Source of the DNA: a virus
Length of the DNA: 41,280 nucleotides
Direction: 5' to 3' (one strand)
Virus record (IMG/VR): IMGVR_UViG_3300042987_003179
Coordinates: 1-41,280 of that record
This document shows positions 4,786 through 24,824 of this stretch, one piece after another. Made by a program: the position numbers and the translations under genes. Position 1 is the first letter of the stretch. The number at the start of each line of letters is the position of its first letter. A model generated the notes under the pieces. The model was not told the DNA's origin and did no database searches. It saw only the letters and a list, made by a program, of their open reading frames with translations.

Positions 4786-4811
4786 TTTATGGGGCACTGA
4801 AAAAATAATGC

Positions 4812-4850: not shown

Positions 4851-4926
4851 GGGCCTATAGCTTAATGGTTAAAGCAGCGAACTCATAATTCGTTGAGTCT
4901 AGGTTCAAATCCTAGTAGGCCCACCA
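4851..4926 (+). tRNA. tRNA with CAT anticodon, probably tRNA-Ile2
   Basis: Acceptor GGGCCTA/TAGGCCC, discriminator A, encoded CCA. The loop CTCATAA gives anticodon CAT. The body (AGCTTAATGGTTAAAGCAGC, then ACTCATAATTCGTTG) resembles E. coli tRNA-Ile2, in which C34 becomes lysidine to read AUA, more than elongator tRNA-Met. The identity call is inference; the tRNA itself is certain. Confidence 0.93.
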
Positions 4927-4933
4927 AATGATA

Positions 4934-5009
4934 GCAGAGTGAGCAAGTCTGGTGATTGCGCGTGCCTGAAGAGCATGAGAATAAGGTTCGATTCCTTAAC
5001 TCTGCACCA
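4934..5009 (+). tRNA. tRNA-Phe(GAA)
   Basis: Acceptor GCAGAGT/ACTCTGC, discriminator A, encoded CCA; D stem GCAA/TTGC; anticodon stem CGTGC/GCATG with loop CTGAAGA (GAA); T arm TAAGG-TTCGATT-CCTTA. Seven bases after the previous tRNA. Confidence 0.92.
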
Positions 5010-5023
5010 AAAAGGAGTTTGAA

Positions 5024-5596
5024 ATGAGAAATCTCATTTTGGCGTTGAATAGCGGTGGTCAACCACATAGTTGGATGACATGGCAAGATGCTATTACACT
5101 TAAGTGTAAGGATCTCATTGCTTGGGAATTTGGTGATGAAGAATTCATGTTTACCGGTGGTATTTCTCGTATGACCGGTCAACAATCGAAAGTTGAAGTT
5201 GCATCTATTATCGCATTGAAGTCTAAGTTTAAGTATATCGAGAGAGTTCCTGCTCTAAACAACAGAAACCTTTTTCGTAGAGACTTGAACTTGTGTGCTT
5301 ACTGTGGTAAGAAGTATACTGAGGCACAATTGACAAAGGATCATATTATTCCTGTTTCTAAGGGTGGTCCTAATACATGGATGAATTGTGTTACTGCATG
5401 CTTAAAGTGTAACAACTACAAGGACAGTATGCTTTTGGATGAGTGTGGTTTGGAACTGTTGTTTGTTCCTTATGTACCAGACAAGGCAGAGGCACTGATT
5501 TTGCAAAATAGAAATATTTTGTCTGATCAGATGCAATTTCTAGCAGATTTTTTGCCTAAGCATTCTCGTGTCAGGCAAATGGTAGTAAAAAGTTAA
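5024..5596 (+). CDS. HNH endonuclease
   Basis: 190 residues with an AAAGGAG ribosome site. A zinc knuckle CAYC (about 91-94) and ACLKC (about 125-129) bracket the HNH core, with DHIIPVSKGG at about 106-115 and a following NCVTACLKCNNYK. This is the arrangement of free-standing phage HNH nucleases of the 5-methylcytosine/McrA type. The first 85 residues are a separate domain with no recognised motif. Its position between two tRNA blocks, each with its own consensus promoter, fits a homing-type mobile gene inserted in the array (inference). Cleavage site unknown. Confidence 0.9.
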   Translation: MRNLILALNSGGQPHSWMTWQDAITLKCKDLIAWEFGDEEFMFTGGISRMTGQQSKVEVASIIALKSKFKYIERVPALNNRNLFRRDLNLCAYCGKKYTEAQLTKDHIIPVSKGGPNTWMNCVTACLKCNNYKDSMLLDECGLELLFVPYVPDKAEALILQNRNILSDQMQFLADFLPKHSRVRQMVVKS

Positions 5597-5605
5597 AAAT
5601 AATGC

Positions 5606-5633
5606 TTGACAACAGTAGCAAATGATGTATAAT
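5606..5633 (+). promoter_or_regulatory. Consensus sigma-70 promoter
   Basis: TTGACA (5606-5611), 16-base spacer, TATAAT (5628-5633). It restarts transcription of the tRNA array after the HNH gene. The roughly 70-base leader to tRNA-Glu holds a short direct repeat GCAGTAAC-GCAGTAAC near 5663-5678. Confidence 0.88.
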
Positions 5634-5712
5634 AGGTACTGTTGGATGTAGCAAAGAAACAAAGCAGTAACGCAGTAACGTAGTACGCTCTTTTACAATT
5701 TGGTTTGGTTAT

Positions 5713-5788
5713 GCTTCCATCGACTACTGGTTAGGTCATTAGGCTTTCAACCTAAAAAAGGAGGGTTCGATTCCCCCTGGGAGCGCCA
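5713..5788 (+). tRNA. tRNA-Glu(TTC)
   Basis: Acceptor GCTTCCA/TGGGAGC with one G-T pair, discriminator G, encoded CCA; anticodon stem TTAGG/CCTAA with loop CTTTCAA (TTC). T stem GAGGG/CCCCC has one A-C mismatch. Confidence 0.9.
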
Positions 5789-5887
5789 TATTAAAGCACA
5801 TTAAGAGGATAAGTCTGAAAAGATAAAGACGGGCAATGAGGCGTGAGACCCGATGCTTCCCAAATAGACTAAAGTGTGTTTTAATAT
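5788..5887 (+). ncRNA. Unassigned structured RNA closed by a 14-bp stem
   Basis: CATATTAAAGCACA at the left end pairs over 14 positions with TGTGTTTTAATATG at the right end (one G-T wobble). Inside are AGTCT/AGACT and CGGG/CCCG stems. It occupies the space of a tRNA between tRNA-Glu and tRNA-His but has no T arm, no D arm and no encoded CCA, and it lacks the CAGCAA motif of the Y-RNA-like family in this window. No long ORF. Boundaries and function are inference from base pairing only. Confidence 0.55.
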
Positions 5888-5894
5888 GGTTAAT

Positions 5895-5968
5895 GGTGTT
5901 AGTGAGGTAGTGGTAGCCTACTCAGCTGTGAACTAAGAAGCGAGGGTTCGATTCCCCCTTTCACCCCA
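5895..5968 (+). tRNA. tRNA-His(GTG)
   Basis: Anticodon stem CTCAG/CTAAG (one mismatch) with loop CTGTGAA (GTG); T loop TTCGATT; encoded CCA preceded by C, the C73 expected of tRNA-His, with an extra 5' G available to pair with it. The acceptor contains two T-T mismatches, so the stem is weaker than usual. Confidence 0.75.
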
Positions 5969-5986
5969 TGAACAGAAAATATTAGT

Positions 5987-6059
5987 TGGTGTGAGTGTAA
6001 TGGTAACACTGCGGAATTTGACTCCGCCATTCTAGGTTCGATTCCTAGCGCGCCTGCCA
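5987..6059 (+). tRNA. tRNA-Gln(TTG)
   Basis: Acceptor TGGTGTG/CGCGCCT with an unpaired U1-U72, consistent with the weak first pair that GlnRS favours; discriminator G and encoded CCA. Anticodon stem GCGGA/TCCGC with loop ATTTGAC (TTG); T arm CTAGG-TTCGATT-CCTAG. Confidence 0.88.
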
Positions 6060-6065
6060 GAATTT

Positions 6066-6141
6066 GGGTCCATGATGAAATTGGTTATCATAGCTGACTT
6101 TTAATCAGTCTTTCAGAGTTCGAGTCTCTGTGGACCTACCA
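6066..6141 (+). tRNA. tRNA-Lys(TTT)
   Basis: Acceptor GGGTCCA/TGGACCT, discriminator A, encoded CCA; anticodon loop CTTTTAA (TTT) on stem GCTGA/TCAGT; T arm CAGAG-TTCGAGT-CTCTG. Confidence 0.93.
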
Positions 6142-6149
6142 AAGAATAT

Positions 6150-6239
6150 GGAAGAGTGGCAGAGTCTGGCTGATTGCACTAGTCTTGAAAACTAGAGGAC
6201 CGAAAGGTTCCGTGGGTTCAAATCCCACCTTTTCCTCCA
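6150..6239 (+). tRNA. tRNA-Ser(TGA)
   Basis: Acceptor GGAAGAG/CTTTTCC, encoded CCA; anticodon loop CTTGAAA (TGA); long class II variable arm GGACCGAAAGGTTCC; T arm GTGGG-TTCAAAT-CCCAC. Confidence 0.93.
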
Positions 6240-6245
6240 CGAATA

Positions 6246-6384
6246 CGGTGGTAGTTTAAATGGCAAAAACAATATGGCGAGCCCAACCTTTACCAGAGGT
6301 TGGGAAAAAGAAATTGAAAGTATACTGGTAATATATTTTTGATGACTAGTCATAAAAACGAAGTGTTCGGCGCGCTTCCCACCG
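6246..6384 (+). ncRNA. tRNA-like RNA with an expanded middle domain
   Basis: CGGTGG (6246-6251) pairs with CCACCG (6379-6384). A D-arm-like TAGTTTAAATGGCAAAAAC follows the 5' strand, and a T-arm-like GAAGTG-TTCGGCG-CGCTTC (6360-6378) precedes the 3' strand. In place of one anticodon arm there are two hairpins: CCCAACCT/AGGTTGGG with a 7-base loop TTACCAG, and ATGAC/GTCAT flanked by T5/A5. No CCA is encoded. It could be a tRNA mimic or a tRNA interrupted by an insertion; I cannot decide. Confidence 0.5.
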
Positions 6385-6395
6385 GCCTAGATTAT

Positions 6396-6469
6396 GCCAT
6401 CATAGTGTAGTGGTCTGCACAGAGCTCAACAAAGCTCAGGTAGGGGATCGTTCCCCCTTGATGGCGCCA
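6396..6469 (+). tRNA. tRNA of undetermined identity (abnormal anticodon loop)
   Basis: Acceptor GCCATCA/TGATGGC, discriminator G, encoded CCA; D stem GTG/CAC; T arm AGGGG-ATCGTTC-CCCCT with A54, a T loop of the same type as tRNA-Gly at 9840. The anticodon arm is GAGCT-CAACAA-AGCTC (6-base loop) or GAGC-TCAACAAA-GCTC (8-base loop), so no standard anticodon can be read. The D-arm style resembles tRNA-Asp/Glu, and Asp is the only amino acid otherwise missing from the array. Confidence 0.7.
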
Positions 6470-6477
6470 AAGTTTTT

Positions 6478-6551
6478 CCTCCTGTAGCTCAATGACAGAG
6501 CAATCGGCTGATAACCGATAGACGTTGGTTTGATTCCAAACTGGAGGACCA
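6478..6551 (+). tRNA. tRNA-Ile(GAT)
   Basis: Acceptor CCTCCTG/CTGGAGG with one T-T mismatch, discriminator A, encoded CCA; D stem GCTC/GAGC; anticodon stem ATCGG/CCGAT with loop CTGATAA (GAT). Confidence 0.9.
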
Positions 6552-6557
6552 GAATAT

Positions 6558-6647
6558 GGAAGATTGTCAGAGAGGCTTATTGACACCGTTTGCTAAACGG
6601 ATGGTCGAGAAATCGGCACAAAGGTTCAAATCCTTTATCTTCCACCA
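6558..6647 (+). tRNA. tRNA-Ser(GCT)
   Basis: Acceptor GGAAGAT/ATCTTCC, encoded CCA; anticodon loop TTGCTAA (GCT); class II variable arm GGTCGAGAAATCGGC; T arm AAAGG-TTCAAAT-CCTTT. Confidence 0.92.
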
Positions 6648-6655
6648 AAATAAAT

Positions 6656-6730
6656 GCATCGATGCCAGAGTGTCTATGGTACTGTCTGCAAAACAGTAAA
6701 AGGTAGGTTAAAATCCTACTCGATGCTCCA
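6656..6730 (+). tRNA. tRNA-Cys(GCA)
   Basis: Acceptor GCATCGA/TCGATGC, discriminator T (the U73 identity element of tRNA-Cys), encoded CCA; anticodon stem ACTGT/ACAGT with loop CTGCAAA (GCA). Confidence 0.93.
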
Positions 6731-6748
6731 GAAAGTATAAAAATATGC

Positions 6749-6777
6749 TTGACAAAATGAAAATGAGCATATATAAT
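6749..6777 (+). promoter_or_regulatory. Perfect sigma-70 promoter
   Basis: TTGACA (6749-6754), 17-base spacer, TATAAT (6772-6777). Predicted start is near 6784. It precedes the GC-rich RNA region and tRNA-Asn. Confidence 0.92.
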
Positions 6778-6783
6778 GCAGTA

Positions 6784-6960
6784 ATGATGTAAGGTTACCC
6801 TCTGAAGATTCCTCGCCTCCTTAGCGAAAAGAGGATGAAACAGTGAGTCGCGGTGATGATCCGGACATCCCCCTCGCTGTAAGGGACACGCCCCATACCT
6901 TTCGGTGTATTGGGTGCGAGGGCTTAAAGCCTAGGAGTTATAATGGGTATGATGCATTAG
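6784..6960 (+). ncRNA. GC-rich structured RNA of unknown class
   Basis: Directly behind a perfect promoter lies a stretch much richer in G and C than the rest of the window. Stems visible: CCCTCGC/GCGAGGG enclosing CCCCATACC / GGTGTATTGGG with a TTTC loop; ATTCCTC/GAGGAT; GATG/CATC around ATCCGGA; TACCC/GGGTA and TAATG/CATTA as possible closing pairs. I see no match to tmRNA, RNase P, 6S, SRP RNA or a known riboswitch. The rest, to about 7020, is AT-rich with one weak hairpin. Ends are approximate. Confidence 0.6.
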
Positions 6961-7022
6961 TACTAGTTAAATTTTGCATGAACAAAATTATACTAAACCG
7001 ATTTTTGCATAGTGTTTTATGC

Positions 7023-7104
7023 TCCAGAGTGCGCGGAGAGGTAACGCAGCGGACTGTTAATCCGTCGCCGAAAGGCATCGTAGGTTCGATCCCTACCTCT
7101 GGAG
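7023..7104 (+). tRNA. tRNA-Asn(GTT) with long variable arm
   Basis: Acceptor TCCAGAG/CTCTGGA, discriminator G, followed by CA rather than CCA; flanking GC/GC would extend the acceptor to 9 bp. Anticodon stem GCGGA/TCCGT with loop CTGTTAA (GTT). The variable region CGCCGAAAGGCAT forms a GCC-GAAA-GGC hairpin, a class II feature not expected in tRNA-Asn. Confidence 0.85.
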
Positions 7105-7117
7105 CATAGAACATTAT

Positions 7118-7193
7118 GCCTTGCAAGCATTGCTGGCGATGCGCTTGATTTGTAACCAAGAGATAGGCGGTTCGATTCCGTCGCAGGGCACCA
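7118..7193 (+). tRNA. tRNA-Thr(TGT)
   Basis: Acceptor GCCTTGC/GCAGGGC, discriminator A, encoded CCA; anticodon stem CTTGA/CCAAG with loop TTTGTAA (TGT); T loop TTCGATT. Confidence 0.88.
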
Positions 7194-7201
7194 AAGAATA
7201 A

Positions 7202-7256
7202 AGAATCCATTCAGCAAACAAAAAACTTTTATGGAAAAAAAGAAAAAACGGATTCT
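7202..7256 (+). ncRNA. Y-RNA-like element 1 (short form)
   Basis: Closing helix AGAATCC (7202-7208) / GGATTCT (7250-7256), then the shared internal motif ATTCAGCAAACA at 7209-7220, a small inner CTTTT/AAAAG hairpin, an A-rich 3' side, and the 3' flank GATAAG. It lies between tRNA-Thr and tRNA-Ala and has no tRNA-like domain. Membership is by motif and helix position shared with the elements at 8029, 8737, 8817, 10497 and 17818; helix sequences differ between copies, so the fold is supported by covariation within the window. Ro60 binding is inference. Confidence 0.6.
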
Positions 7257-7266
7257 GATAAGTTAC

Positions 7267-7341
7267 GGGGGCAGTAGTGGGCTACGGAAATCCCTTGCAA
7301 GGATTTTGTCTACAAGAGTTCGATTCTCTGGGTCTCCACCA
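7267..7341 (+). tRNA. tRNA-Ala(TGC)
   Basis: Acceptor GGGGGCA/GGTCTCC (with wobble pairs and one mismatch), discriminator A, encoded CCA; anticodon stem AATCC/GGATT with loop CTTGCAA (TGC). The D arm is short (TAG/CTA) and the T stem has one mismatch. Confidence 0.82.
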
Positions 7342-7349
7342 TAATGAAT

Positions 7350-7427
7350 TGCGGGAGAGTGAAACGGAATAATCATTCCAGTCTCATAAGCTGGCGATAA
7401 TAGGTTCGACTCCTATGCCCGCATCCA
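7350..7427 (+). tRNA. tRNA-Met(CAT)
   Basis: Acceptor TGCGGGA/GCCCGCA with one end mismatch, discriminator T, encoded CCA; anticodon stem CCAGT/GCTGG with loop CTCATAA (CAT); T arm ATAGG-TTCGACT-CCTAT. Elongator Met versus Ile2 is not settled. Confidence 0.85.
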
Positions 7428-7443
7428 AATATTTTTGAATTAT

Positions 7444-7538
7444 ACTCCTGTAGTTTAATGGTAAAACACCAAGCTTATACCTTGGCATAGGCGCCAGATT
7501 AGCGCACGTTACAGGTTCGAGTCCTGTCGGGAGTACCA
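7444..7538 (+). tRNA. tRNA-Ile(TAT) with long variable arm
   Basis: Acceptor ACTCCTG/CGGGAGT, discriminator A, encoded CCA; D stem GTTT/AAAC; anticodon stem CCAAG/CTTGG with loop CTTATAC (TAT). The variable region is about 25 bases with a GCGC/GCGC stem around CAGATTA, a class II-like arm unusual for tRNA-Ile. Confidence 0.83.
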
Positions 7539-7552
7539 CTTTAGGATAACAT

Positions 7553-7930
7553 ATGAGCTATTTTGAAGAATTGTATAATGAAATTGAGCAATATAAACGT
7601 GAAGATAAGTTAAAGAAGAAGTATATCAGTTTCATTACAGATAAAACTATCGATCTAGACTTACGATGGAAGTTATATTGTCATGCTCCTGCTTCATTTA
7701 AAAATGAAAATTCTTATATAGTTAATTTTGAAGCAGAAAAGTTACTAGAGAGTGGTAAAATTAATTGGTATGATGATTTTTATAGAGATCGTTACTGTAC
7801 AGTTTATATGAAAGATATTGTACAAGATATGTACGAGGATGAAAGAGAAAAGTATTCAGAGGATTTCATTCAAACATTTAAGGAAGAAATTTTAGAGTTA
7901 AATTTAGATTCATTTATCAACGATTGGTAA
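7553..7930 (+). CDS. Hypothetical acidic protein in tRNA array, 125 residues
   Basis: ATG at 7553 with an AGGA ribosome site upstream. The protein is strongly acidic at its C-terminal half (VQDMYEDEREKYSEDFIQTF) and predicted largely helical, with no membrane segment or metal motif. I do not recognise the family. It stands alone between tRNA-Ile and tRNA-Pro and is transcribed with them. Its acidic, small character is compatible with a host-takeover or decoy role, but nothing in the sequence proves this. Confidence 0.75.
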   Translation: MSYFEELYNEIEQYKREDKLKKKYISFITDKTIDLDLRWKLYCHAPASFKNENSYIVNFEAEKLLESGKINWYDDFYRDRYCTVYMKDIVQDMYEDEREKYSEDFIQTFKEEILELNLDSFINDW

Positions 7931-7940
7931 ATGAGTCATT

Positions 7941-8018
7941 CTTGGTGTAGGCTAGTTTGGTTAAGTCGCCTGATTTGGGGTCAGGAAACCGCTGGTTCAA
8001 ATCCAGCCACCAAGACCA
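7941..8018 (+). tRNA. tRNA-Pro(TGG)
   Basis: Acceptor CTTGGTG/CACCAAG, discriminator A, encoded CCA; anticodon stem CCTGA/TCAGG with loop TTTGGGG (TGG); T arm GCTGG-TTCAAAT-CCAGC. Confidence 0.93.
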
Positions 8019-8028
8019 GTTTTAAAAT

Positions 8029-8175
8029 AGGATAGGTTCTGCAAACAAACGACAATGGAGGAAGGCTTATTCGGCAGGTTCAATCAGAGGGGAAACCCTG
8101 CGAAGATTGTGCTGAGCCGTGTCTTCGAGGAGAGTTTCGAGTTCTCTCTTTAAACAAAAAGTAGACAACTATCCT
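8029..8175 (+). ncRNA. Y-RNA-like element 2 (long form)
   Basis: Closing helix AGGATAG (8029-8035) / CTATCCT (8169-8175), internal motif GTTCTGCAAACA at 8036-8047, 3' flank TGATAAAG. The 130-base interior contains nested stems GGCT/AGCC and GCAGG/CCTGC, plus a hairpin GAGAG/CTCTC whose loop TTTCGAGTT resembles a T loop. No full D arm is visible, so tRNA mimicry here is uncertain. Same family as the elements at 7202, 8737, 8817, 10497 and 17818. Confidence 0.6.
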
Positions 8176-8187
8176 GATAAAGTTTTT

Positions 8188-8278
8188 GGGGAGTGCAATA
8201 AGGACTAACTGGTGTGGTCGCCTGGCTGTAAACCAGGTCCCAATGGGCAAGAGGTTCGATTCCATCCATTCCCCACCA
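8188..8278 (+). tRNA. tRNA-Tyr(GTA)
   Basis: Acceptor GGGGAGT/ATTCCCC, discriminator A, encoded CCA; anticodon stem CCTGG/CCAGG with loop CTGTAAA (GTA); long variable arm TCCCAATGGGCAA as expected for bacterial tRNA-Tyr. Confidence 0.93.
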
Positions 8279-8282
8279 ATAT

Positions 8283-8358
8283 GGGAGTATCGTATAGAGG
8301 CTATTATATCTGACTCTTAATCAGAAAGACGAAGGTTCGAGTCCTTCTGCTCCTACCA
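8283..8358 (+). tRNA. tRNA-Lys(CTT)
   Basis: Acceptor GGGAGTA/TGCTCCT, discriminator A, encoded CCA; anticodon stem TCTGA/TCAGA with loop CTCTTAA (CTT); T arm GAAGG-TTCGAGT-CCTTC. Second Lys tRNA of the array. Confidence 0.92.
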
Positions 8359-8362
8359 AACT

Positions 8363-8448
8363 GGCTGCGTGGTGGAATTGGCATACACAACAGACTTAAA
8401 ATCTGTCGCCTTTTAGGCTTGTGGGTTCGAGTCCCACCGCAGCTACCA
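8363..8448 (+). tRNA. tRNA-Leu(TAA)
   Basis: Acceptor GGCTGCG/CGCAGCT, discriminator A, encoded CCA; anticodon stem ACAGA/TCTGT with loop CTTAAAA (TAA); class II variable arm CGCCTTTTAGGCTT; T arm GTGGG-TTCGAGT-CCCAC. Confidence 0.93.
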
Positions 8449-8450
8449 TA

Positions 8451-8559
8451 TTGAAGTGCATTGTTAGCTCAGTAGGAAGAGCGACTGATTAAATTCTAGA
8501 TAGCAGGGACCATAACAAGGCATAGCGCATGGGTTCGAGACCCATACAGTGTACTTCAA
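8451..8559 (+). ncRNA. tRNA-like RNA with 14-bp acceptor stem and no anticodon arm
   Basis: TTGAAGT plus GCATTGT (8451-8464) pairs along its length with ACAGTGT plus ACTTCAA (8546-8559), giving a 14-bp coaxial stem where a tRNA has 7. A normal D arm (GCTC-AGTAGGAA-GAGC) and T arm (ATGGG-TTCGAGA-CCCAT) are present in tRNA order. The 46 bases between them show no anticodon stem-loop. No CCA is encoded. Features are those of a tRNA mimic or a stable decoy rather than an adaptor. Confidence 0.6.
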
Positions 8560-8571
8560 CATGGTTTTAAT

Positions 8572-8650
8572 GCCCGTGTGGACAAATTTGGCAAAGTCGT
8601 CTGCCTTAGAAGCAGAAGTTCTGTGGGTTCGAGTCCCACCTCGGGTACCA
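8572..8650 (+). tRNA. tRNA-Leu(TAG) with short variable loop
   Basis: Acceptor GCCCGTG/CTCGGGT (one mismatch), discriminator A, encoded CCA; Leu-like D arm; anticodon stem TCTGC/GCAGA with loop CTTAGAA (TAG). The variable loop is only AGTTCT, instead of the long arm normal for tRNA-Leu. Confidence 0.87.
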
Positions 8651-8656
8651 AATTTT

Positions 8657-8732
8657 GGTGGTGTGGCTGATTGGTCTAGGCACTGCTCTCATAAGGCAGG
8701 TTAAAGTGGTTCGATTCCACTCACCACCACCA
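8657..8732 (+). tRNA. tRNA-Met(CAT), third CAT tRNA
   Basis: Acceptor GGTGGTG/CACCACC, discriminator A, encoded CCA; anticodon stem CTGCT/GGCAG with loop CTCATAA (CAT); T arm AGTGG-TTCGATT-CCACT. Confidence 0.88.
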
Positions 8733-8736
8733 GTTT

Positions 8737-8807
8737 TGAATAAGTTCAGCAACATTTCGATCATCATGTTTTAAAACTGTTTACTAGATCCAGTAAACAC
8801 TTATTCA
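8737..8807 (+). ncRNA. Y-RNA-like element 3
   Basis: Closing helix TGAATAAG (8737-8744) / CTTATTCA (8800-8807), internal motif TTCAGCAACA at 8745-8754, and an inner perfect hairpin TGTTTACT/AGTAAACA abutting the closing helix on the 3' side; 3' flank GAAATAATAAG. It starts 4 bases after the CCA of tRNA-Met and is followed, 9 bases on, by element 4, so the two form a tandem pair. Confidence 0.62.
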
Positions 8808-8816
8808 GAAATAATA

Positions 8817-8934
8817 AGAATGCTTACAGCAAATATTCTTTTAATCCAAGCAGCGAATATGGGTTCGACTCCCATAGATTCCGAAAGGGTCTTAGTCTAA
8901 TGGTAGGACAGCCGCCAAAAAAGAAGTGCATTCT
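8817..8934 (+). ncRNA. Y-RNA-like element 4 with permuted tRNA-like domain
   Basis: Outer helix AGAATGC (8817-8823) / GCATTCT (8928-8934); internal loop motif TTACAGCAAATA; inner helix TTCTTTT (8836-8842) / AAAAGAA (8919-8925). Above these, an anticodon-stem-like helix GCAGC (8850-8854) / GCCGC (8911-8915) leads to a T arm ATGGG-TTCGACT-CCCAT (8859-8875), an acceptor-like hairpin AGATTC-CGAAA-GGGTCT (8876-8892), then TA and a D arm GTCT-AATGGTA-GGAC (8895-8909). The T arm precedes the D arm, so the tRNA-like part is circularly permuted, as described for bacterial Y RNAs of the YrlA type (from memory). Confidence 0.75.
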
Positions 8935-8936
8935 GA

Positions 8937-8944
8937 TATAAATA
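8937..8944 (+). promoter_or_regulatory. TATAAATA octamer in tRNA array (possible late promoter)
   Basis: Exact late-promoter octamer immediately 3' of the closing helix of the RNA at 8817-8934 and 5 bases before tRNA-Arg. It may be chance, because the same bases form the TGATA-type 3' flank of the RNA family. Confidence 0.3.
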
Positions 8945-8948
8945 CAAT

Positions 8949-9023
8949 GCCCTTGTGGTGAAATGGAAATCACATAACGCTACGGACGTTAAATTCTGGG
9001 TTCGACTCCTAGCAAGGGTGCCA
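8949..9023 (+). tRNA. tRNA-Arg(ACG)
   Basis: Acceptor GCCCTTG/CAAGGGT, discriminator G, encoded CCA; anticodon stem TAACG/CGTTA with loop CTACGGA (ACG), which would be read as inosine after host TadA editing. Confidence 0.88.
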
Positions 9024-9042
9024 TTAATTAAAGTATGAATAT

Positions 9043-9336
9043 ATGAAAAAGCGCGATATAGTTTGGAAAGATTTAGCTGGTGAAGGTTATACACTAGAAG
9101 AATTGATTGATGAATTTAAATTGAGTAAAGTTGTAAACAGAAATTTACAATCATTACTACAAAAATATAAAATACCTTTCACGGAGATTGATAAAGCTAG
9201 TTTCCTAGCAAAGGTAGATCATTATGATTGGCATAAAAAGGTTTCTGTGGCAGAACCGGTAGTCGAAGAAAAAGCAAAGCCAAAAAAGAGAGCTGCAAAG
9301 AAAACAAAGAAACGCAAAACCCCTATGGGCAAATAG
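9043..9336 (+). CDS. Hypothetical protein with lysine-rich tail
   Basis: 97 residues. The N-terminal 65 residues form a compact helical domain (WKDLAGEGYTLEELIDEFKL, then VVNRNLQSLLQKYKI). The tail KPKKRAAKKTKKRKTPMGK is very basic and suggests nucleic-acid binding. The stop codon lies within the D arm of the overlapping tRNA-Leu gene (9319-9395), so the last six codons are also tRNA sequence. Family not recognised. No good Shine-Dalgarno is seen; the ATG follows AAGTATGAATAT. Confidence 0.7.
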   Translation: MKKRDIVWKDLAGEGYTLEELIDEFKLSKVVNRNLQSLLQKYKIPFTEIDKASFLAKVDHYDWHKKVSVAEPVVEEKAKPKKRAAKKTKKRKTPMGK

Positions 9337-9395
9337 GCAAAGCCAACTCTCTCAAAAAGAGTAGTTTCTCGGTTCGAGTCCGAGTAGGGGTACCA
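9319..9395 (+). tRNA. tRNA-Leu(CAA) overlapping a CDS end
   Basis: Acceptor ACCCCTA/TAGGGGT, discriminator A, encoded CCA; D stem GGC/GCC; anticodon stem ACTCT/AGAGT with loop CTCAAAA (CAA); T arm CTCGG-TTCGAGT-CCGAG. The variable loop is only AGTTT, too short for a normal tRNA-Leu. The first 18 bases are the final codons and stop of the lysine-rich CDS. Confidence 0.87.
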
Positions 9396-9422
9396 ATTAC
9401 AACCAAACCAAATAGGTAAAAT

Positions 9423-9737
9423 ATGTGTACAGTATCGATGGTCGGTGATTATTATAATGATAAGTGGAAAAAATGGGATGGACCCGGTTATACGATTCCT
9501 TCTACTCCTACAGTACCTGGCGGAATTTATCCAGTCAGTGTTATTAGTAGACAAGAATTTGATGATTTGAAGAAAGAAGTTCTAGATATGAAAGAACTTC
9601 TAAAGCGTGCAGTAAAATATGATGAAGAAAATAACCAACCAGATTGTCAGATAGAAGATAAAATTGCTTTACTGAAAAAAGTAGCAGAGATGGTTGGAAT
9701 TAGTTTAGATGATGTCTTGACAAACAAAAAGAGTTAA
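9423..9737 (+). CDS. Hypothetical protein with C-terminal helical region, 104 residues
   Basis: MCTVSMVGDYYNDKWKKWDG, then a proline-rich PGYTIPSTPTVPGG stretch, then a helical or coiled-coil half (RQEFDDLKKEVLDMKELLKR). Phages carry similar small proteins with an MCTVSMVGDYY opening; I cannot attach a function. A sigma-70 promoter for tRNA-Trp overlaps its last codons. Start chosen at the ATG with AGGTAAAAT upstream. Confidence 0.75.
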   Translation: MCTVSMVGDYYNDKWKKWDGPGYTIPSTPTVPGGIYPVSVISRQEFDDLKKEVLDMKELLKRAVKYDEENNQPDCQIEDKIALLKKVAEMVGISLDDVLTNKKS

Positions 9738-9745
9738 TATATTAT
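9717..9745 (+). promoter_or_regulatory. Sigma-70 promoter within the end of the upstream CDS
   Basis: TTGACA (9717-9722), 17-base spacer, TATTAT (9740-9745). Predicted start is about 9752, five bases before tRNA-Trp. The -35 box is inside the final codons of the 9423-9737 gene. Confidence 0.7.
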
Positions 9746-9756
9746 TTAAGAATAAT

Positions 9757-9830
9757 ATCTCGATGGTGCAACGGCAGCATAGCGGTCTCCAAAACCGTTG
9801 ATGGGGGTTCAAATCCCTCTCGGGATGCCA
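9757..9830 (+). tRNA. tRNA-Trp(CCA)
   Basis: Acceptor ATCTCGA/TCGGGAT, discriminator G, encoded CCA; anticodon stem GCGGT/ACCGT with loop CTCCAAA (CCA); T loop TTCAAAT. Confidence 0.93.
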
Positions 9831-9839
9831 AGTATTAAA

Positions 9840-9914
9840 GCAGGTAGGGTGAGAATGGACGCACGAGACTTTGCCAAAGTCTAGATTCCGGATCGTTACC
9901 GGATACCTGCTCCA
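9840..9914 (+). tRNA. tRNA-Gly(GCC)
   Basis: Acceptor GCAGGTA/TACCTGC, discriminator T, encoded CCA; anticodon stem AGACT/AGTCT with loop TTGCCAA (GCC); T arm TCCGG-ATCGTTA-CCGGA with A54 in place of T54. Confidence 0.9.
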
Positions 9915-9916
9915 AT

Positions 9917-9991
9917 GCTTCTATAGCTTAACGGTTAAAGTAGCTGTCTCTAAAACAGTGAATGTGAGTTCGATTCTCGCTAGAAGCGCCA
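9917..9991 (+). tRNA. tRNA-Arg(TCT), first copy
   Basis: Acceptor GCTTCTA/TAGAAGC, discriminator G, encoded CCA; anticodon stem GCTGT/ACAGT with loop CTCTAAA (TCT). It starts two bases after the CCA of tRNA-Gly. Confidence 0.93.
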
Positions 9992-10090
9992 GATTAAGGA
10001 GTTAAATATGAGACTACATATTCCATAGATTAGACCGCCATAAAGATTTTCTTGTTTCAAAATAATTTAAATTTTAACAAGGAGATCAAA

Positions 10091-10492
10091 ATGTCAGTAC
10101 AATTAAAAATTAAGCAAAAACATTTAGCATTAGAACCAGCTGTTATTAAAACTGAAGAACGTAAAATTCTAAGTAGAATAAGAGGCATTAAGAATAACGC
10201 TTCTTATATTGCAAATAGTGAGAAGTTAATATATGAATTAGAGTTCACATTCAACAATCTAGTTAATCATAGAAGATGGGATGTGAGAAACGAGTCTAGA
10301 GCAACTCATTTAGCAAGAGCTTATATTGTAGGTAAAGAATATAAGAGCGTGGAGATAAAAAGACACGAGCAAGGTGAGTATGCGTTTAGATCAGATATTA
10401 TTCCTAGAATAGTTAAGATGGTTACTAAGTATGGCAAACCTGACCAGAGAAAAGTAACTAAAGAACAAATTCTAGAGTGGGCTAAAATTTAA
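10091..10492 (+). CDS. Hypothetical protein, 133 residues
   Basis: Start chosen at 10091 because ACAAGGAGATCAAA gives a strong ribosome site; an upstream in-frame ATG at 10052 lacks one. The N-terminal VQLKIKQKHLALEPAVIKTE and a later RNESRATHLARAYIVGKEYK resemble small proteins found in many T4-like and jumbo phages, of unknown role. Basic, soluble, no membrane segment. It lies between tRNA-Arg and the RNA element at 10497. Confidence 0.8.
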   Translation: MSVQLKIKQKHLALEPAVIKTEERKILSRIRGIKNNASYIANSEKLIYELEFTFNNLVNHRRWDVRNESRATHLARAYIVGKEYKSVEIKRHEQGEYAFRSDIIPRIVKMVTKYGKPDQRKVTKEQILEWAKI

Positions 10493-10496
10493 TTAT

Positions 10497-10550
10497 TGGA
10501 TGCATTCAGCAAACATTTTATCTTTAGGTATAAAAGAAAAAGCGCATCCA
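10497..10550 (+). ncRNA. Y-RNA-like element 5 (short form)
   Basis: Closing helix TGGATGC (10497-10503) / GCATCCA (10544-10550), internal motif ATTCAGCAAACA at 10504-10515 (identical to the 7202 copy), inner helix TTTTAT/ATAAAA, A-rich 3' side, 3' flank GAATAAG whose last G is the first base of tRNA-Gly. It begins only 5 bases after the upstream stop codon. Confidence 0.62.
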
Positions 10551-10556
10551 GAATAA

Positions 10557-10633
10557 GCAGGTATGGTGTTTAACGGTTAGCATGGGAGTCTTCCAAACTC
10601 TTGGTGTCGGTTCAAATCCGGCTACCTGCTCCA
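10557..10633 (+). tRNA. tRNA-Gly(TCC)
   Basis: Acceptor GCAGGTA/TACCTGC, discriminator T, encoded CCA; anticodon loop CTTCCAA (TCC) on stem GGAGT/ACTCT; T arm GTCGG-TTCAAAT-CCGGC. Confidence 0.92.
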
Positions 10634-10645
10634 TTGGAGATTTAT

Positions 10646-11005
10646 ATGTATTCTATTAGAATGAAAAAGAGTGTGTTGTATGAAAAGGTTGTAAGTAACA
10701 GAGAAAAGCATAAGAAGGAATATGAAGAAGCTGTTGAGGATTATAAGGCAGCAGTTTTGCGAATTTCTCAAGCAAATCTAAAGCTAGCCAAGACAGCTGA
10801 TTTGAATAAGTTTAAAGAGATTAGATCAATTCCTCCTTCACCAATGAATTATCTCAGTTCGTATGAAAAATCAATCTCTATGTTAGAGCATACAGTTGAA
10901 GAAGAGATTGAAATTGATGATGGCTTGTATAGTCAGTTAGTTCTTGATCAGTGGGCGTGGAAAGATAATTTCACTTTGTCTAATTCTTCATATAAGTTGT
11001 CTTAA
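10646..11005 (+). CDS. Hypothetical helical protein, 119 residues
   Basis: ATG at 10646 with TTGGAGA upstream; an earlier in-frame start at 10601 would lie inside tRNA-Gly and is rejected. The protein is a long charged helix (EKVVSNREKHKKEYEEAVED, then YKAAVLRISQANLKLA) followed by LSSYEKSISMLEHTVEEEIE and a short aromatic end. Similar proteins occur in many T4-like phages without known function. The stop overlaps the start of the next small gene (TAATG). Confidence 0.8.
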   Translation: MYSIRMKKSVLYEKVVSNREKHKKEYEEAVEDYKAAVLRISQANLKLAKTADLNKFKEIRSIPPSPMNYLSSYEKSISMLEHTVEEEIEIDDGLYSQLVLDQWAWKDNFTLSNSSYKLS

Positions 11006-11151
11006 TGCATTTTAAACGTAAAAAATCGAAGCGAGTAGTTAAATGTACTATGTGTACTAAACTAAGATGGATGGGAAATTCTAAAAGTAAAAAAAGAATT
11101 TCCGATCTACGAAATCTAGATCGAGATAAAGATGAAAGAGCTTCTATTTAG
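11005..11151 (+). CDS. Small CxxC protein, 48 residues
   Basis: MHFKRKKSKRVVKCTMCTKL, then RWMGNSKSKKR. A single CTMC knuckle sits in a very basic peptide; relatives with the KCTMC..RW.GNSK pattern are common near phage tRNAs. It may bind a metal or RNA. It overlaps the previous gene by one base and the GGQ-protein gene by 20 bases, implying coupled translation. Confidence 0.7.
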   Translation: MHFKRKKSKRVVKCTMCTKLRWMGNSKSKKRISDLRNLDRDKDERASI

Positions 11152-11479
11152 CGTTACTGCAAAAGATTGTGAATGGTCATATACTAGAGGCACAGGTGCT
11201 GGTGGGCAGAAGAAAAATAAAACTTCTAGTGCAGTACATTGTACTCACAAAGCATCTGGTGCTCATGGCTATGCTGAAGATACAAGAAGTCAAGCAGAAA
11301 ATAAAGTGTTAGCATTTCAAAGAATGGCAAACACTGAAAAGTTTAAAACATGGCATAGATTAGAAACTATGCGTAGATCTGGTGAGATGGCAACTATTGA
11401 CCGTTATGTTGAAAACGAAATGAAAAAGGTCAAAGTTGAGTGTAAAGATGAAAATGGTCGCTGGATCAATATGAATTAA
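11132..11479 (+). CDS. Stand-alone GGQ-domain release factor / peptidyl-tRNA hydrolase
   Basis: 115 residues. YTRGTGAGGQKKNKTSSAVH (about 17-36) is the GGQ loop of class I release factors, with the catalytic GGQ at about 24-26, followed by the conserved HKASGAHGYAEDTRSQAENK. Domains that read stop codons are absent, so it resembles ArfB/ICT1-type ribosome-rescue hydrolases or the phage RF-like family. It lacks a long basic C-terminal tail but has a short MKKVKVE segment. Likely role: releasing peptides from stalled ribosomes late in infection. Position in the tRNA array supports a translation role (inference). Confidence 0.88.
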   Translation: MKELLFSVTAKDCEWSYTRGTGAGGQKKNKTSSAVHCTHKASGAHGYAEDTRSQAENKVLAFQRMANTEKFKTWHRLETMRRSGEMATIDRYVENEMKKVKVECKDENGRWINMN

Positions 11480-11480
11480 T

Positions 11481-11556
11481 GCTAGGTTGCCGTGAGGGGT
11501 TAACGACCGCTCTTACAAAGCGGAGTATGCTGGTTCGAGTCCAGCACCTAGCACCA
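11481..11556 (+). tRNA. tRNA-Val(TAC)
   Basis: Acceptor GCTAGGT/ACCTAGC, discriminator A, encoded CCA; anticodon stem CCGCT/AGCGG with loop CTTACAA (TAC); T arm GCTGG-TTCGAGT-CCAGC. Confidence 0.94.
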
Positions 11557-11558
11557 AA

Positions 11559-11632
11559 GCTTTCATAGTTAAATGGTATAATAGTTTTTTCGTAATAAAC
11601 AGTTCTCGGTTCGATTCCGTGTGGGAGCTCCA
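11559..11632 (+). tRNA. tRNA-Thr(CGT)
   Basis: Acceptor GCTTTCA/TGGGAGC, discriminator T, encoded CCA; anticodon stem GTTTT/TAAAC (one mismatch) with loop TTCGTAA (CGT); T loop TTCGATT. The D and anticodon stems are AT-rich. Confidence 0.83.
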
Positions 11633-11635
11633 TAA

Positions 11636-11980
11636 ATGATTAGAGTCTGCATCTGTGGTGGACGAGATTATACTGACAAATCAAGAGTTTACGCTATTTT
11701 AAACAGACTCTTGACAATTAGATCGGATTTTGTTATAATATCCGGAGGAGCTACAGGAGCTGATTCATTTGCAGTAGATTGGGCGAGAGAAAAGTCTCAT
11801 GAATACGAAACATATTATGCTGATTGGAAAAAGCACAAAAAAGCAGCAGGTCCTATTAGAAATCGTCACATGCTCAAGTTGGGTATAGATTTGTTGATTG
11901 CATTTCCTGGTGGTACGGGAACTGCAGATATGATGAAAATTTGTGAGAACTCCGGAGTTAGAGTTTTAAAGATTAAATAG
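11636..11980 (+). CDS. DUF2493 / SLOG-type nucleotide-binding protein
   Basis: 114 residues. ICGGRDYTDK (about 6-15), the SGGATGADSFAVDWA loop (about 36-50) and the late AFPGGTGTADMMK (about 91-103) are the Rossmann-type motifs of the YspA/DUF2493 family in the SLOG superfamily, which binds nucleotides or nucleotide derivatives. The middle AGPIRNRHML is also typical. Relatives are thought to sense or hydrolyse nucleotide signals or ADP-ribose-type ligands; here the ligand is unknown. The ATG is 3 bases after tRNA-Thr CCA, and its stop codon G is the first base of tRNA-Arg. Confidence 0.88.
   Translation: MIRVCICGGRDYTDKSRVYAILNRLLTIRSDFVIISGGATGADSFAVDWAREKSHEYETYYADWKKHKKAAGPIRNRHMLKLGIDLLIAFPGGTGTADMMKICENSGVRVLKIK
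11711..11739 (+). promoter_or_regulatory. Perfect sigma-70 promoter inside the DUF2493 gene
   Basis: TTGACA (11711-11716), 17-base spacer, TATAAT (11734-11739), wholly within codons of the 11636-11980 gene. It would drive tRNA-Arg and tRNA-Thr downstream. Confidence 0.65.
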
Positions 11981-12054
11981 CCCTCGTCGTTCAACGGAAA
12001 GGACATCGGTCTTCTAAACCGAGAATGCGGGTTCGACTCCTGCCGAGGGTGCCA
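11980..12054 (+). tRNA. tRNA-Arg(TCT), second copy
   Basis: Acceptor GCCCTCG/CGAGGGT, discriminator G, encoded CCA; anticodon loop CTTCTAA (TCT) on stem TCGGT/ACCGA. Its 5' G is the last base of the upstream TAG stop. The body differs from the copy at 9917, so it is not a recent duplication. Confidence 0.92.
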
Positions 12055-12070
12055 AATTTTAGGATATAAA

Positions 12071-12166
12071 ATGTGGATTGAGAATGTTTCTGCAGCAGAT
12101 GTACTTAAAGGTAGGCATCATGATTGTGGACACAATAGTATGCTAATTCAGATGTATGATAGCTAA
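12071..12166 (+). CDS. Small ORF, probably truncated gene, 31 residues
   Basis: MWIENVSAADVLKGRHHDCG, then HNSMLIQMYDS and stop. The HDCG.NSMLIQ.YD pattern looks like the N-terminus of a phage phosphatase-like protein of the T4 57B kind, but the rest is absent and tRNA-Thr starts within its stop codon. Likely a remnant cut by insertion or deletion, though an AGGATATAAA leader could still allow translation. Confidence 0.45.
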   Translation: MWIENVSAADVLKGRHHDCGHNSMLIQMYDS

Positions 12167-12238
12167 TGTAGCACAGTTGGTAGTTGCACTACTTTGGTAA
12201 AGTAGAGGTCGTGGGTTCGAGCCCCACCATTAGCACCA
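12162..12238 (+). tRNA. tRNA-Thr(GGT)
   Basis: Acceptor GCTAATG/CATTAGC, discriminator A, encoded CCA; anticodon stem CTACT/AGTAG with loop TTGGTAA (GGT); T arm GTGGG-TTCGAGC-CCCAC. Last tRNA of the array; overlaps the stop of the preceding small ORF. Confidence 0.93.
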
Positions 12239-14143: not shown

Positions 14144-15187
14144 ATGAAAAAGTTTGATATTCTCGTCTATATTGGGCGCTTTCAGCCCGTTCACAATGCT
14201 CACGCTGAGATTATTCGTAGAGCACATTCCCTAGCAGAAAAAGTAATTATTATAGTTGGATCTGGATGGCAACCTCCAACTTACAAAAATCCATGGTCAT
14301 CCGCAGAGCGACATCTAATGCTCGCCAATGTCATTAAAGACATAACTAATGATCCAAAGAAAATTGTTGCAGAACATACTTTTGATACTATCTACAATGA
14401 CGATGCCTGGGCATCTCGCATTCAAAATATAGTAAACAAACATACAAATGTATTTGTAGCCAATTCAAGTACTCCTAAAATTGGTATTATTGGTCATGAC
14501 AAAGACGAAAGTACATTCTATCTAAAGATGTTTCCTCAATGGGAACGAGTTGAGGTTGAACTTATTGAACCTCTAAATGCTACAGATATTCGTGATATTT
14601 ACTTTCGAGAAGGAATGAACCTCAAGTTCCTTGAGGGTGTGGTTCCAGCAACTACAAAATGTTTTCTAGAGTCTTTTGCAAAGAGCTCTAATTATAAACA
14701 AATTATTGCTGAAAGAAAGTTCATCGAGGATTATAAGAAGCAGTTTAGTGGTTTAGCCTATCCTCCTATTTTCGTAACAGTAGATGCTATCGTTATTCAG
14801 TCTGGTCACGTACTAATGGTTCGTAGACGTTCTGAACCTGGTAAGGGTCTGTGGGCATTACCTGGTGGATTCGTCAATGCAAACACTGATCGATCAGTAC
14901 AAGATGCAATGATTAGAGAACTACGAGAGGAAACTGGTATTAAAGTTCCTGCACCGGTTCTTATGGGTTCAATTAAAGAGACTCGAGTGTTTGATGCAAT
15001 TGCACGTAGCACAAGAGGTAGAACTATAACTCACGCTTTCAAAATTCATCTACCTGCTGGTGATCTACCTCGCGTTAAGGGATCAGATGATGCGGAGAAA
15101 GCATCTTGGGTTCCAATTGCAAATATTGATTCTAGTTTTTGCTATGAAGATCATTATGAAATCATTCAATGGGCGGTAGGAGGCTAG
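14144..15187 (+). CDS. Bifunctional NMN adenylyltransferase / Nudix hydrolase
   Basis: 347 residues, two domains. Residues 1-190: nucleotidyltransferase with YIGRFQPVHNAHAEIIRRA (HxxH at 17-20), WSSAERHLML and, near 145-153, NATDIRDIYF, the NadM-type ATP-binding motif. Residues 200-347: Nudix hydrolase with GGFVNANTDRSVQDAMIREL then REETG (about 241-265). The first converts NMN plus ATP to NAD+; the second, in this family, hydrolyses ADP-ribose or related compounds. Next gene but one is nicotinamide phosphoribosyltransferase, so together they rebuild NAD+ from nicotinamide. Equivalent pairs are known in vibriophage KVP40 and in phage anti-defence NAD+ reconstitution pathways. Confidence 0.93.
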   Translation: MKKFDILVYIGRFQPVHNAHAEIIRRAHSLAEKVIIIVGSGWQPPTYKNPWSSAERHLMLANVIKDITNDPKKIVAEHTFDTIYNDDAWASRIQNIVNKHTNVFVANSSTPKIGIIGHDKDESTFYLKMFPQWERVEVELIEPLNATDIRDIYFREGMNLKFLEGVVPATTKCFLESFAKSSNYKQIIAERKFIEDYKKQFSGLAYPPIFVTVDAIVIQSGHVLMVRRRSEPGKGLWALPGGFVNANTDRSVQDAMIRELREETGIKVPAPVLMGSIKETRVFDAIARSTRGRTITHAFKIHLPAGDLPRVKGSDDAEKASWVPIANIDSSFCYEDHYEIIQWAVGG

Positions 15188-15294
15188 AAATAATTAAGAT
15201 TATTAAAACTGAACCCCATAAATCAGTTGTAAAGGAATGTGTTTGTAGAAAGTGTGTTAATATAACAGAAAATCCTAACAATAGAGTTGGGTAG
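15169..15294 (+). CDS. Small ORF with CxCxxC, 41 residues
   Basis: ATG inside the end of the NMNAT-Nudix gene, peptide MGGRRLEIIKIIKTEPHKSV, then VKECVCRKCVNITENPNNRV. The EPHKSVVKECVCRKC segment resembles phage zinc-ribbon proteins, but only one metal half-site is present, so it may be a truncated version. It fills the gap before the NAMPT gene. No clear ribosome site other than GGTAGG after the start. Confidence 0.4.
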   Translation: MGGRRLEIIKIIKTEPHKSVVKECVCRKCVNITENPNNRVG

Positions 15295-15315
15295 CAAAAC
15301 GTAAAGGAGATTTAC

Positions 15316-21719: not shown

Positions 21720-22143
21720 ATGGAATGGTAGATTTTTAGAACTAGCACAAGTAGTAGCAAGTTGGTCTAAAGATCCCTCTACACAAGTAGGTGCTGTAAT
21801 TGTCGATTCAAGGAATCGAATTTTGTCTACTGGATTCAATGGATTTCCACAGAGAATAAAAGATGATGAAAGGTATTGCAATAAGCAAACGAAACATGAT
21901 ATAGTAATACATGCAGAGGTTAATGCTATACTGTTTGCAAATACAAATTTAAATGGATTAAACTTAGGCGGTTGTACTTTATACTCAACACTAATGCCAT
22001 GTTCTAGATGTGCAGCAATCATAATTCAATCGGGTATAGAAACCGTTTGTTATGCATCAAGAAATCATCCTAATTTACAGGCAAATTTCGATCTTACTCA
22101 AAGACTTTTTGAGGAAGCTCGTATTAAATTAATAAAAGGATAA
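21706..22143 (+). CDS. cd: dCMP deaminase
   Basis: 145 residues. FLELAQVVASWSKDPSTQVG (about 10-29) and GFNGFPQRIKDDERY are typical of the T4 Cd family; HAEVNAI (69-75) and MPCSRCA (97-103) supply zinc ligands and the catalytic Glu. It converts dCMP to dUMP, feeding dTMP synthesis for phage DNA. Its placement just upstream of the DNA polymerase fits nucleotide supply. It is a little shorter than T4 Cd (193), lacking some insertions. Confidence 0.93.
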   Translation: MESDKWNGRFLELAQVVASWSKDPSTQVGAVIVDSRNRILSTGFNGFPQRIKDDERYCNKQTKHDIVIHAEVNAILFANTNLNGLNLGGCTLYSTLMPCSRCAAIIIQSGIETVCYASRNHPNLQANFDLTQRLFEEARIKLIKG

Positions 22144-22145
22144 TA

Positions 22146-22328
22146 ATGAAAGCTGATAAAAACTTTAAAATGCCAAAGCCATGTAAGCGAATCCTCATGA
22201 CTATGAGCGGAGAAAATAAGACGATCTATAGAAAAATGATCATTGATAGTGTTCTATGCTGTGAAGAACATCTTAAGCGAAGCATGCGCTCGTCTAAGAC
22301 AATGGGAGAATCTTCTACAGCAGAATAA
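22146..22328 (+). CDS. Small conserved phage protein, 60 residues
   Basis: MKADKNFKMPKPCKRILMTM, then a basic helical rest. The FKMPKxxKRxLxTM pattern is found in a small phage family without known function. It lies between the dCMP deaminase (2-base gap) and DNA polymerase (1-base gap), so it is part of the polymerase transcription unit. Confidence 0.7.
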   Translation: MKADKNFKMPKPCKRILMTMSGENKTIYRKMIIDSVLCCEEHLKRSMRSSKTMGESSTAE

Positions 22329-22329
22329 T

Positions 22330-24813: not shown

Positions 24814-24824
24814 CAGGATAAAAT

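Follow-up and report, generated by a model that had tools for sequence, protein, structure and literature searches.

A YrlA-like RNA with permuted tRNA arms in a phage tRNA array and the handle it shares with RNAs of other phages carrying a Ro60-like gene

YrlA-type RNA modules are partners of Ro proteins in Salmonella and other bacteria (PMC7790460, PMC8394870). The tRNA-like domain of Salmonella YrlA is modified like a tRNA, and in Deinococcus Rsr is tethered to PNPase by a Y RNA (PMC7790460, PMC8394870). Among phages, Y RNAs have been reported for mycobacteriophages (Chen et al. 2014, as related in PMC12282133). Mycobacteriophages aside, the accessible literature offers at most guesses at the RNA partners of phage Ro60-like proteins (PMC12282133). 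In Listeria phage CKA15, three very abundant unexplained RNAs lie upstream of the Ro60-like gene, no farther than 2 kb from it, and were guessed in 2025 to be Y RNAs (PMC12282133).

In this study, we analyse a window of 41,280 bases, a whole IMG/VR virus record with T4-like replication genes (clamp, clamp loader, UvsX, B-family polymerase and DnaB-like helicase). It contains an element, E4, which very probably is a YrlA-type phage Y RNA, with a handle as docking site for a Ro60-like protein and a permuted tRNA mimic at its far end. Ro60 proteins of phages were already known, as were the Y RNAs of mycobacteriophages; the larger finding here is a Y RNA family spread across phages, together with its handle. 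This main finding was made beyond 8817-8934 and concerns the handle, the siblings that carry it and the gene for a Ro60-like protein.

Permuted tRNA arms in an element of a phage tRNA array

ARAGORN places 30 tRNAs at 4851-12238 of the window. E4 is located inside this array, with tRNA-Met (8657-8732) on one side and tRNA-Arg (8949-9023) on the other. Searched by nucleotide similarity, known phages match the E4 region over tRNA-sized stretches only. E4 is composed of the following parts.

8817-8934, plus strand: E4, putative YrlA-like Y RNA, 118 nt
8817-8823, plus strand: closing helix, 5' strand AGAATGC; seven of seven Watson-Crick pairs with 8928-8934, pairing probabilities 0.72-1.0
8824-8832, plus strand: handle motif TTACAGCAA, adjoining the closing helix; predicted binding site of a Ro60-like protein
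8836-8842, plus strand: inner helix, 5' strand TTCTTTT; seven of seven pairs with 8919-8925
8850-8854, plus strand: anticodon-stem-like strand GCAGC; four pairs and a central A-C mismatch with GCCGC at 8911-8915
8859-8875, plus strand: T arm, stem ATGGG/CCCAT, loop TTCGACT
8876-8892, plus strand: closed acceptor-like hairpin AGATTC-CGAAA-GGGTCT; six pairs, two of them G-U
8893-8894, plus strand: UA, equivalent to tRNA positions 8-9
8895-8909, plus strand: D arm GTCT-AATGGTA-GGAC
8911-8915, plus strand: anticodon-stem-like strand GCCGC, partner of 8850-8854
8919-8925, plus strand: inner helix, 3' strand AAAAGAA, partner of 8836-8842
8928-8934, plus strand: closing helix, 3' strand GCATTCT, followed by GAT

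A preliminary description had proposed the closing and inner helices, the T arm, the acceptor-like hairpin, the UA and the D arm, and all of them were recovered where it had placed them or close by. The anticodon-stem-like helix GCAGC/GCCGC that it had also drawn exists with four pairs but is interrupted at its centre, where A faces C.

Thermodynamics alone does not show that E4 folds above chance. In single-sequence folding the z-score of the minimum free energy was -1.07, which is not significant, and the acceptor and D helices reached base-pair probabilities of only 0.05-0.29. Comparison, by blind scan and covariation, is decisive, and together with an Rfam match it places the permuted module clearly above chance.

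The Rfam model of YrlA (RF02553) matches 8858-8909 with the arms in the right order (E 0.034, 191 bases searched). The score is 20.4 bits, where the cut-off is 69, and the match covers positions 30-81 only. E4 and YrlA have in common the outer stem, the 5' bulge and the inner helix, further the T arm, the closed acceptor hairpin, the UA and the D arm in permuted order, and a genome that encodes a Ro60-fold protein as well, the fold being a prediction in the case of E4. They differ in the handle bulge, which is UUACAGCAAAUA in E4 and AUGCU in the YrlA consensus, and E4 has CUUACAGCAA in place of the consensus handle sequence of YrlA. E4 is located in a phage tRNA array, unlike YrlA, and its presumed partner belongs to the DUF2828 type in Pfam, whereas that of YrlA belongs to TROVE. 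Since the Rfam threshold is missed and the YrlA handle sequence is absent, we do not file E4 as a YrlA member. The comparison with Rfam YrlA that the preliminary description had proposed ends below threshold; its reading as a YrlA-like Y RNA is supported by the module order, the handle-bearing siblings and the predicted Ro60 fold. By its architecture and gene linkage, both read from sequence, E4 qualifies as a Y RNA. Two further YrlA matches in the window (8399-8506 and 8594-8691) are ordinary tRNAs and were discarded; similar weak matches occur in 13 of 14 control genomes.

Judged as a standard tRNA, E4 is rejected. It has neither the standard arm order nor an anticodon loop nor a CCA-ready 3' end; ARAGORN makes no call, and the Rfam tRNA model matches the T arm only (12.6 bits).

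The permuted order recurs in related phages. A blind scan for T arm, hairpin and D arm in this succession, which ignored the handle, yielded 40 sense and no antisense matches in 3.08 Mb of related contigs; in the shuffled window a single match appeared in 200 shuffles, and four phages without the Ro60-like gene gave none. Several matches are ordinary tRNA-tRNA junctions with a CCA end inside (e.g. in contigs L122, L133 and L170). Most carry the handle, including two in Enterococcus phage EA1 and the module of Mycobacterium phage Krypton555, which lies directly 3' of gene 56, annotated as 'Ro-like RNA binding protein'. Krypton555 has the same permuted module as E4 and the same handle, built as stem, CACAGCAA, stem and GUUA, while its sequence is unrelated outside the conserved positions and E4 possesses an extra A/U-rich inner helix.

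Homologous modules with an E4-type handle were found at 26808-26933 of E. coli phage wV8 and in the IMG/VR contigs L118, L119, L125, L126, L137, L152, L156, L190, L197, L199 and L335; degenerate modules are present in KVP40, L120, L128, L141, L143 and L185. The Felix-O1-like phage wV8 has its Ro60-like gene at 24405-25820 and its predicted RNAs at 26159-26933. Covariation establishes the fold. In an alignment of 12 homologous modules all 156 cells form standard pairs, and the covariation score is 0.97, compared with 0.26 +/- 0.04 after shuffling and at most 0.28 when the alignment is slid. Both sides change in nine of 13 pairs, namely in three of five in the T arm stem, in all four counted in the acceptor-like hairpin and in two of four in the D arm. 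At the equivalent of tRNA positions 8-9, most siblings with a full D arm have UA or UG. The T arm lying 5' of the D arm, the reverse of a tRNA gene and noted in the preliminary description, is borne out by the partial YrlA match, the blind scan and the covariation of 12 modules.

A Ro60-like gene and the handle common to sibling RNAs

Located 9.2 kb from E4 and co-directional with it is a gene for a Ro60-like protein.

18104-19525, plus strand: Ro60-like protein, 473 aa; Pfam DUF2828 and DUF7788; vWA domain with DVSGS MIDAS motif

Its product falls into PHROG 850 ('RNA-binding protein') and has relatives in 681 phage records, of which some from mycobacteriophages are annotated 'Ro-like RNA binding protein'. 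The literature found on DUF2828 consisted of plant studies only. As a single sequence, the protein found nothing in the PDB by phmmer and nothing in IMG/VR, where relatives appeared only with an alignment as query. In a profile of 19 phage relatives the DVSGS-type MIDAS is invariant, and a PDB search with this profile returned Ro60 first (E 0.007). AlphaFold2 modelled the protein with pLDDT 90.5 and pTM 0.90 from 49 window and IMG/VR sequences (pLDDT 36 without alignment). The nine best PDB matches of this model in Foldseek are all Ro60/TROVE proteins (best E 1.3e-10), among them Ro60 of Thermus phage phiLo and D. radiodurans Rsr. Compared with vertebrate Ro60, D. radiodurans Rsr and phiLo Ro60, the predicted fold is alike over the full length (TM about 0.5-0.65) and includes the MIDAS, with 12-17% sequence identity and Pfam DUF2828/DUF7788 instead of TROVE. 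The modelling strongly predicts a Ro60 fold, that is, a helical-repeat ring and a vWA domain with MIDAS.

At least six RNAs of the window have a common handle, E4 and the five siblings listed here, of which E6 is a candidate.

7202-7256, plus strand: E1, small sibling RNA, 55 nt; AGAATCC-ATTCAGCAAAC...GGATTCT-GATAAG
8029-8175, plus strand: E2, sibling RNA, 147 nt; AGGATAG-GTTCTGCAAAC...CTATCCT-GATAAA
8737-8807, plus strand: E3, sibling RNA directly 5' of E4; TGAATAA-GTTCAGCAACA...TTATTCA-GAAATAA
10497-10550, plus strand: E5, small sibling RNA, 54 nt; TGGATGC-ATTCAGCAAAC...GCATCCA-GAATAA
17818-18012, plus strand: E6, candidate sibling RNA, 195 nt, with a 6-bp stem, just upstream of the Ro60-like gene; AGGATG-ATTACAGCAAC...CATCCT-GTTAAA

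These elements follow one design: a stem, (N)UUCAGCAAAC or UUACAGCAA, a variable middle, the returning stem and GAUAA or GAAUAA. The handle consensus is a stem AG-N5, then (N)UUCAGCAA or UUACAGCAA, and a closing stem ..CU-G(U/A)U.

Concerning the occurrence of the handle beyond the window, we scanned 80 IMG/VR contigs that carry close relatives of the Ro60-like gene, having turned each contig to bring the gene onto its plus strand. Stem plus motif gave 87 sense matches and one antisense match, and the full AG...CU-G signature 78 and none; altered control motifs gave at most nine stem matches per strand, of which 0-4 had the signature. In 238 contigs, the strict signature yielded 165 sense and no antisense elements and a loose scan 503 sense and 24 antisense (control motifs 14-41), all these handle counts coming from a contig set that was not de-duplicated and includes some contigs twice. 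The loose scan found at least one element in 197 of the 238 contigs (83%), and 147 of 491 elements lie at most 200 nt upstream of the Ro60-like gene.

The 179 unique elements have 53 distinct 5' stems, and most of the stem positions 3 to 7 show four or five pair types. Because stem pairing was preselected in the scan, the evidence is this variety of stems rather than the pairing. The handle motif occupies the same position as in E4 in all 179 and is also found in the Rfam family Dicty_Class_I_RNA. Of 18 named phages that have the Ro60-like gene, 12 contain strict-handle elements; in nine of them the search reached only about 20 kb from the gene. The gene-negative phages T4, 44RR and S-PM2 have none and SPO1 one probable chance match, these four being the only such controls. 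Handles near the Ro60-like gene are seen in Felix-O1-like, KVP40-like, Listeria, Enterococcus and Mycobacterium phages.

Most handle elements lack any tRNA-like part; their median length is 79 nt and many are about 55 nt long. At the site of the anticodon stem of E4, siblings have either a complete anticodon hairpin or nothing. Two siblings (L118:9298 and L125:5824) are complete permuted tRNAs of a four-arm type with an intact anticodon arm. Further, tRNA-like domains in normal order are placed in the same handle, with the anticodon loop CTTCTAA and without a CCA end.

L120, 7703-7800: normal-order tRNA-like domain
L126, 4484-4580: normal-order tRNA-like domain
L137, 5187-5292: normal-order tRNA-like domain
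L143, 2662-2758: normal-order tRNA-like domain
L187, 18-115: normal-order tRNA-like domain

With both permuted and normal-order siblings in one handle, the far end is modular. E2 has another far end, a GAGAG-TTTCGAGTT-CTCTC hairpin that is also present in other phages. Siblings with such a hairpin (GAGAG-TTTCGA(G/T)TT-CTCTC-like) are those at 8029-8175 of the window, L125:9766, L126:9784, L140:9801, L141:9753 and L153:2485, and they usually lie just upstream of the Ro60-like gene.

Relation to Dictyostelium Class I RNAs and to other phages

The Class I RNAs of Dictyostelium are abundant and have been unexplained since 2004. They start with AAG, carry an 11-nt motif CCUUACAGCAA beside the 5' stem and end with CUGU (PMC7919456). 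Like them, the phage handle has an AAG start, a short stem joining the ends, UUACAGCAA by the 5' strand and a CUG(U) end. E4 itself shows AAG, CUUACAGCAA and CUGA, differing in the last base, and many of its relatives have CUGU. Class I RNAs of D. discoideum measure 42-65 nt, a length that E1 and E5 (54-55 nt) fit, as against 118 nt for E4, and unlike E4 they have no tRNA-like part.

The Rfam model Dicty_Class_I_RNA (RF01414) matches E4 through CUUACAGCAA beside the closing helix at 17.6 bits and E1 (7203-7257) at 37.7 bits (E 0.001 in the window). The latter is the best score of all phage elements, every one of which stays below the cut-off of 41.5. Of 35 records that have the Ro60-like gene, 23 give matches, all of them sub-cut-off; none of 14 control genomes gives any. 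The model is incompletely specific, as it weakly matches one of four gene-negative phages, T4. This match (NC_000866, 132052-132103, minus strand, 24.3 bits) in a phage without Ro60-like gene may be chance or a relic.

Given the sub-cut-off scores throughout the phages and the match in T4, the link to the amoeba is, on sequence grounds, a strong lead and no demonstration. We put forward tentatively, at somewhat less than an even chance, that the handle represents a single ancient docking signal of Ro type, phage Y RNAs and Dictyostelium Class I RNAs being one kind of RNA. Those of the amoeba would then be the Y RNAs of a DUF2828-type Ro60 relative, and an abundant eukaryotic RNA class would gain a likely protein partner.

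In Listeria phage LP-124, three handle elements lie in tandem directly upstream of the Ro60-like gene. It is plausible that the three RNAs of the related phage CKA15 are elements of this type; their published transcript coordinates could not be aligned with those of the LP-124 elements. Staphylococcus phage S-CoN_Ph13 has two equal-scoring pairs of Class-I-like elements, at 14791-14927 (minus strand) and 23390-23526 (plus strand). One pair follows just after its Ro60-like gene (21858-23369), and the record holds a second match to the gene.

Possible roles of E4 and other features of the window

For E4 we infer direct binding to a protein, processing, a tRNA-shaped three-dimensional structure, a partner and a purpose as follows. 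The handle (closing helix, UUACAGCAA and flanking CU-G) would dock the phage's own Ro60-like protein (18104-19525). The far end would form a circularly permuted tRNA mimic, the RNA ends leaving at the anticodon position and the acceptor end being closed by a loop. E4 is probably excised from the transcript of the tRNA array; its position between two tRNA genes makes processing by tRNA-maturation nucleases plausible. It may link the Ro60-like ring with a partner able to recognise tRNA shape, either host PNPase, as in the Deinococcus Ro RNPs, or a tRNA enzyme; alternatively, it may gate access to the ring. The tRNA-shaped end would bring in such a partner or compete for it, and in this way the phage could direct how RNA is turned over or repaired while it infects its host. 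With far ends as modular as short loops, normal-order and permuted tRNA mimics, several Y RNAs may route one Ro60 ring to different partners. One recognisable handle allows the Y RNAs of each phage to be listed and provides a testable system.

The main functional rival to this docking and tethering role is an unlikely one, namely that E4, free or bound to Ro60, is a decoy that occupies host anticodon nucleases or other defences attacking tRNAs and so spares the tRNAs of the phage. The phage carries 30 tRNAs, some siblings have complete anticodon arms (L118:9298, L125:5824 and the normal-order types with loop CTTCTAA), and such a role has been proposed for Salmonella YrlA (PMC7790460). E4 itself, however, has no anticodon loop, and since a tRNA-like part is missing altogether from most siblings (median length 79 nt, with many of about 55 nt), the family overall is not a set of decoys.

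It is more improbable still that the handle binds a different protein, e.g. an RRM protein, and is linked to the Ro60-like gene only indirectly. Dictyostelium Class I RNA is directly bound by the RRM protein Rnp1A (PMC7919456). The tie between handle and Ro60-like gene is a correlation of co-occurrence and clustering, and another co-inherited phage protein could be the true ligand. Yet phages of very different kinds have these elements clustered close to the Ro60-like gene, and in bacteria such as Salmonella Ro has YrlA-type modules as partners (PMC7790460, PMC8394870).

There is very little to recommend E4 as a functionless remnant in which array deletion juxtaposed a 3' and a 5' tRNA half. 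Its location in a tandem tRNA array would suit such an origin, and the blind scan indeed also catches ordinary tRNA-tRNA junctions (L122, L133, L170). Against it stand the missing CCA end, the acceptor closed by a 5-nt loop, the handle motif, the precision of the outer and inner helices and pairs that covary between unrelated phages; as sole explanation it is refuted by the covariation of 12 modules. Permuted tRNA genes giving rise to working tRNAs are found in some algae and archaea. That E4 is such a gene, to be circularised and cut into a working tRNA, is the least credible reading, for although 3' half precedes 5' half here too and the two are joined at the anticodon stem, E4 has no CCA or discriminator-CCA, no anticodon loop, a mismatched anticodon stem and no ARAGORN gene call, the closed acceptor hairpin is stable in homologues, and a Y-type handle, common to siblings that are not tRNA-like, seals the ends.

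Several other features of the window were observed. Three strong, near-identical promoter-like sites at 4808, 5601 and 6745 (GCTTGACA, about 17 bases, TATAAT) lie upstream of blocks of the tRNA array. The tRNA at 9917-9991 has a CTA anticodon (Pyl according to ARAGORN; Rfam tRNA 65.9 bits) and is a possible amber suppressor of the phage array. There are three odd tRNA-like genes (6396-6469, 8458-8553 and 8189-8273): one with a two-base anticodon call, another with a long insertion and a third with a weak match to the tRNA-Sec model only. Within the array, 11132-11479 encodes a short RF-1-domain protein with a GGQ motif that resembles a ribosome-rescue hydrolase. At 14144-16698, a gene for a cytidylyltransferase-like/NUDIX protein adjoins one for a NAMPT-like protein; the two are likely an NAD salvage pair, which may counter NAD-depleting defences.
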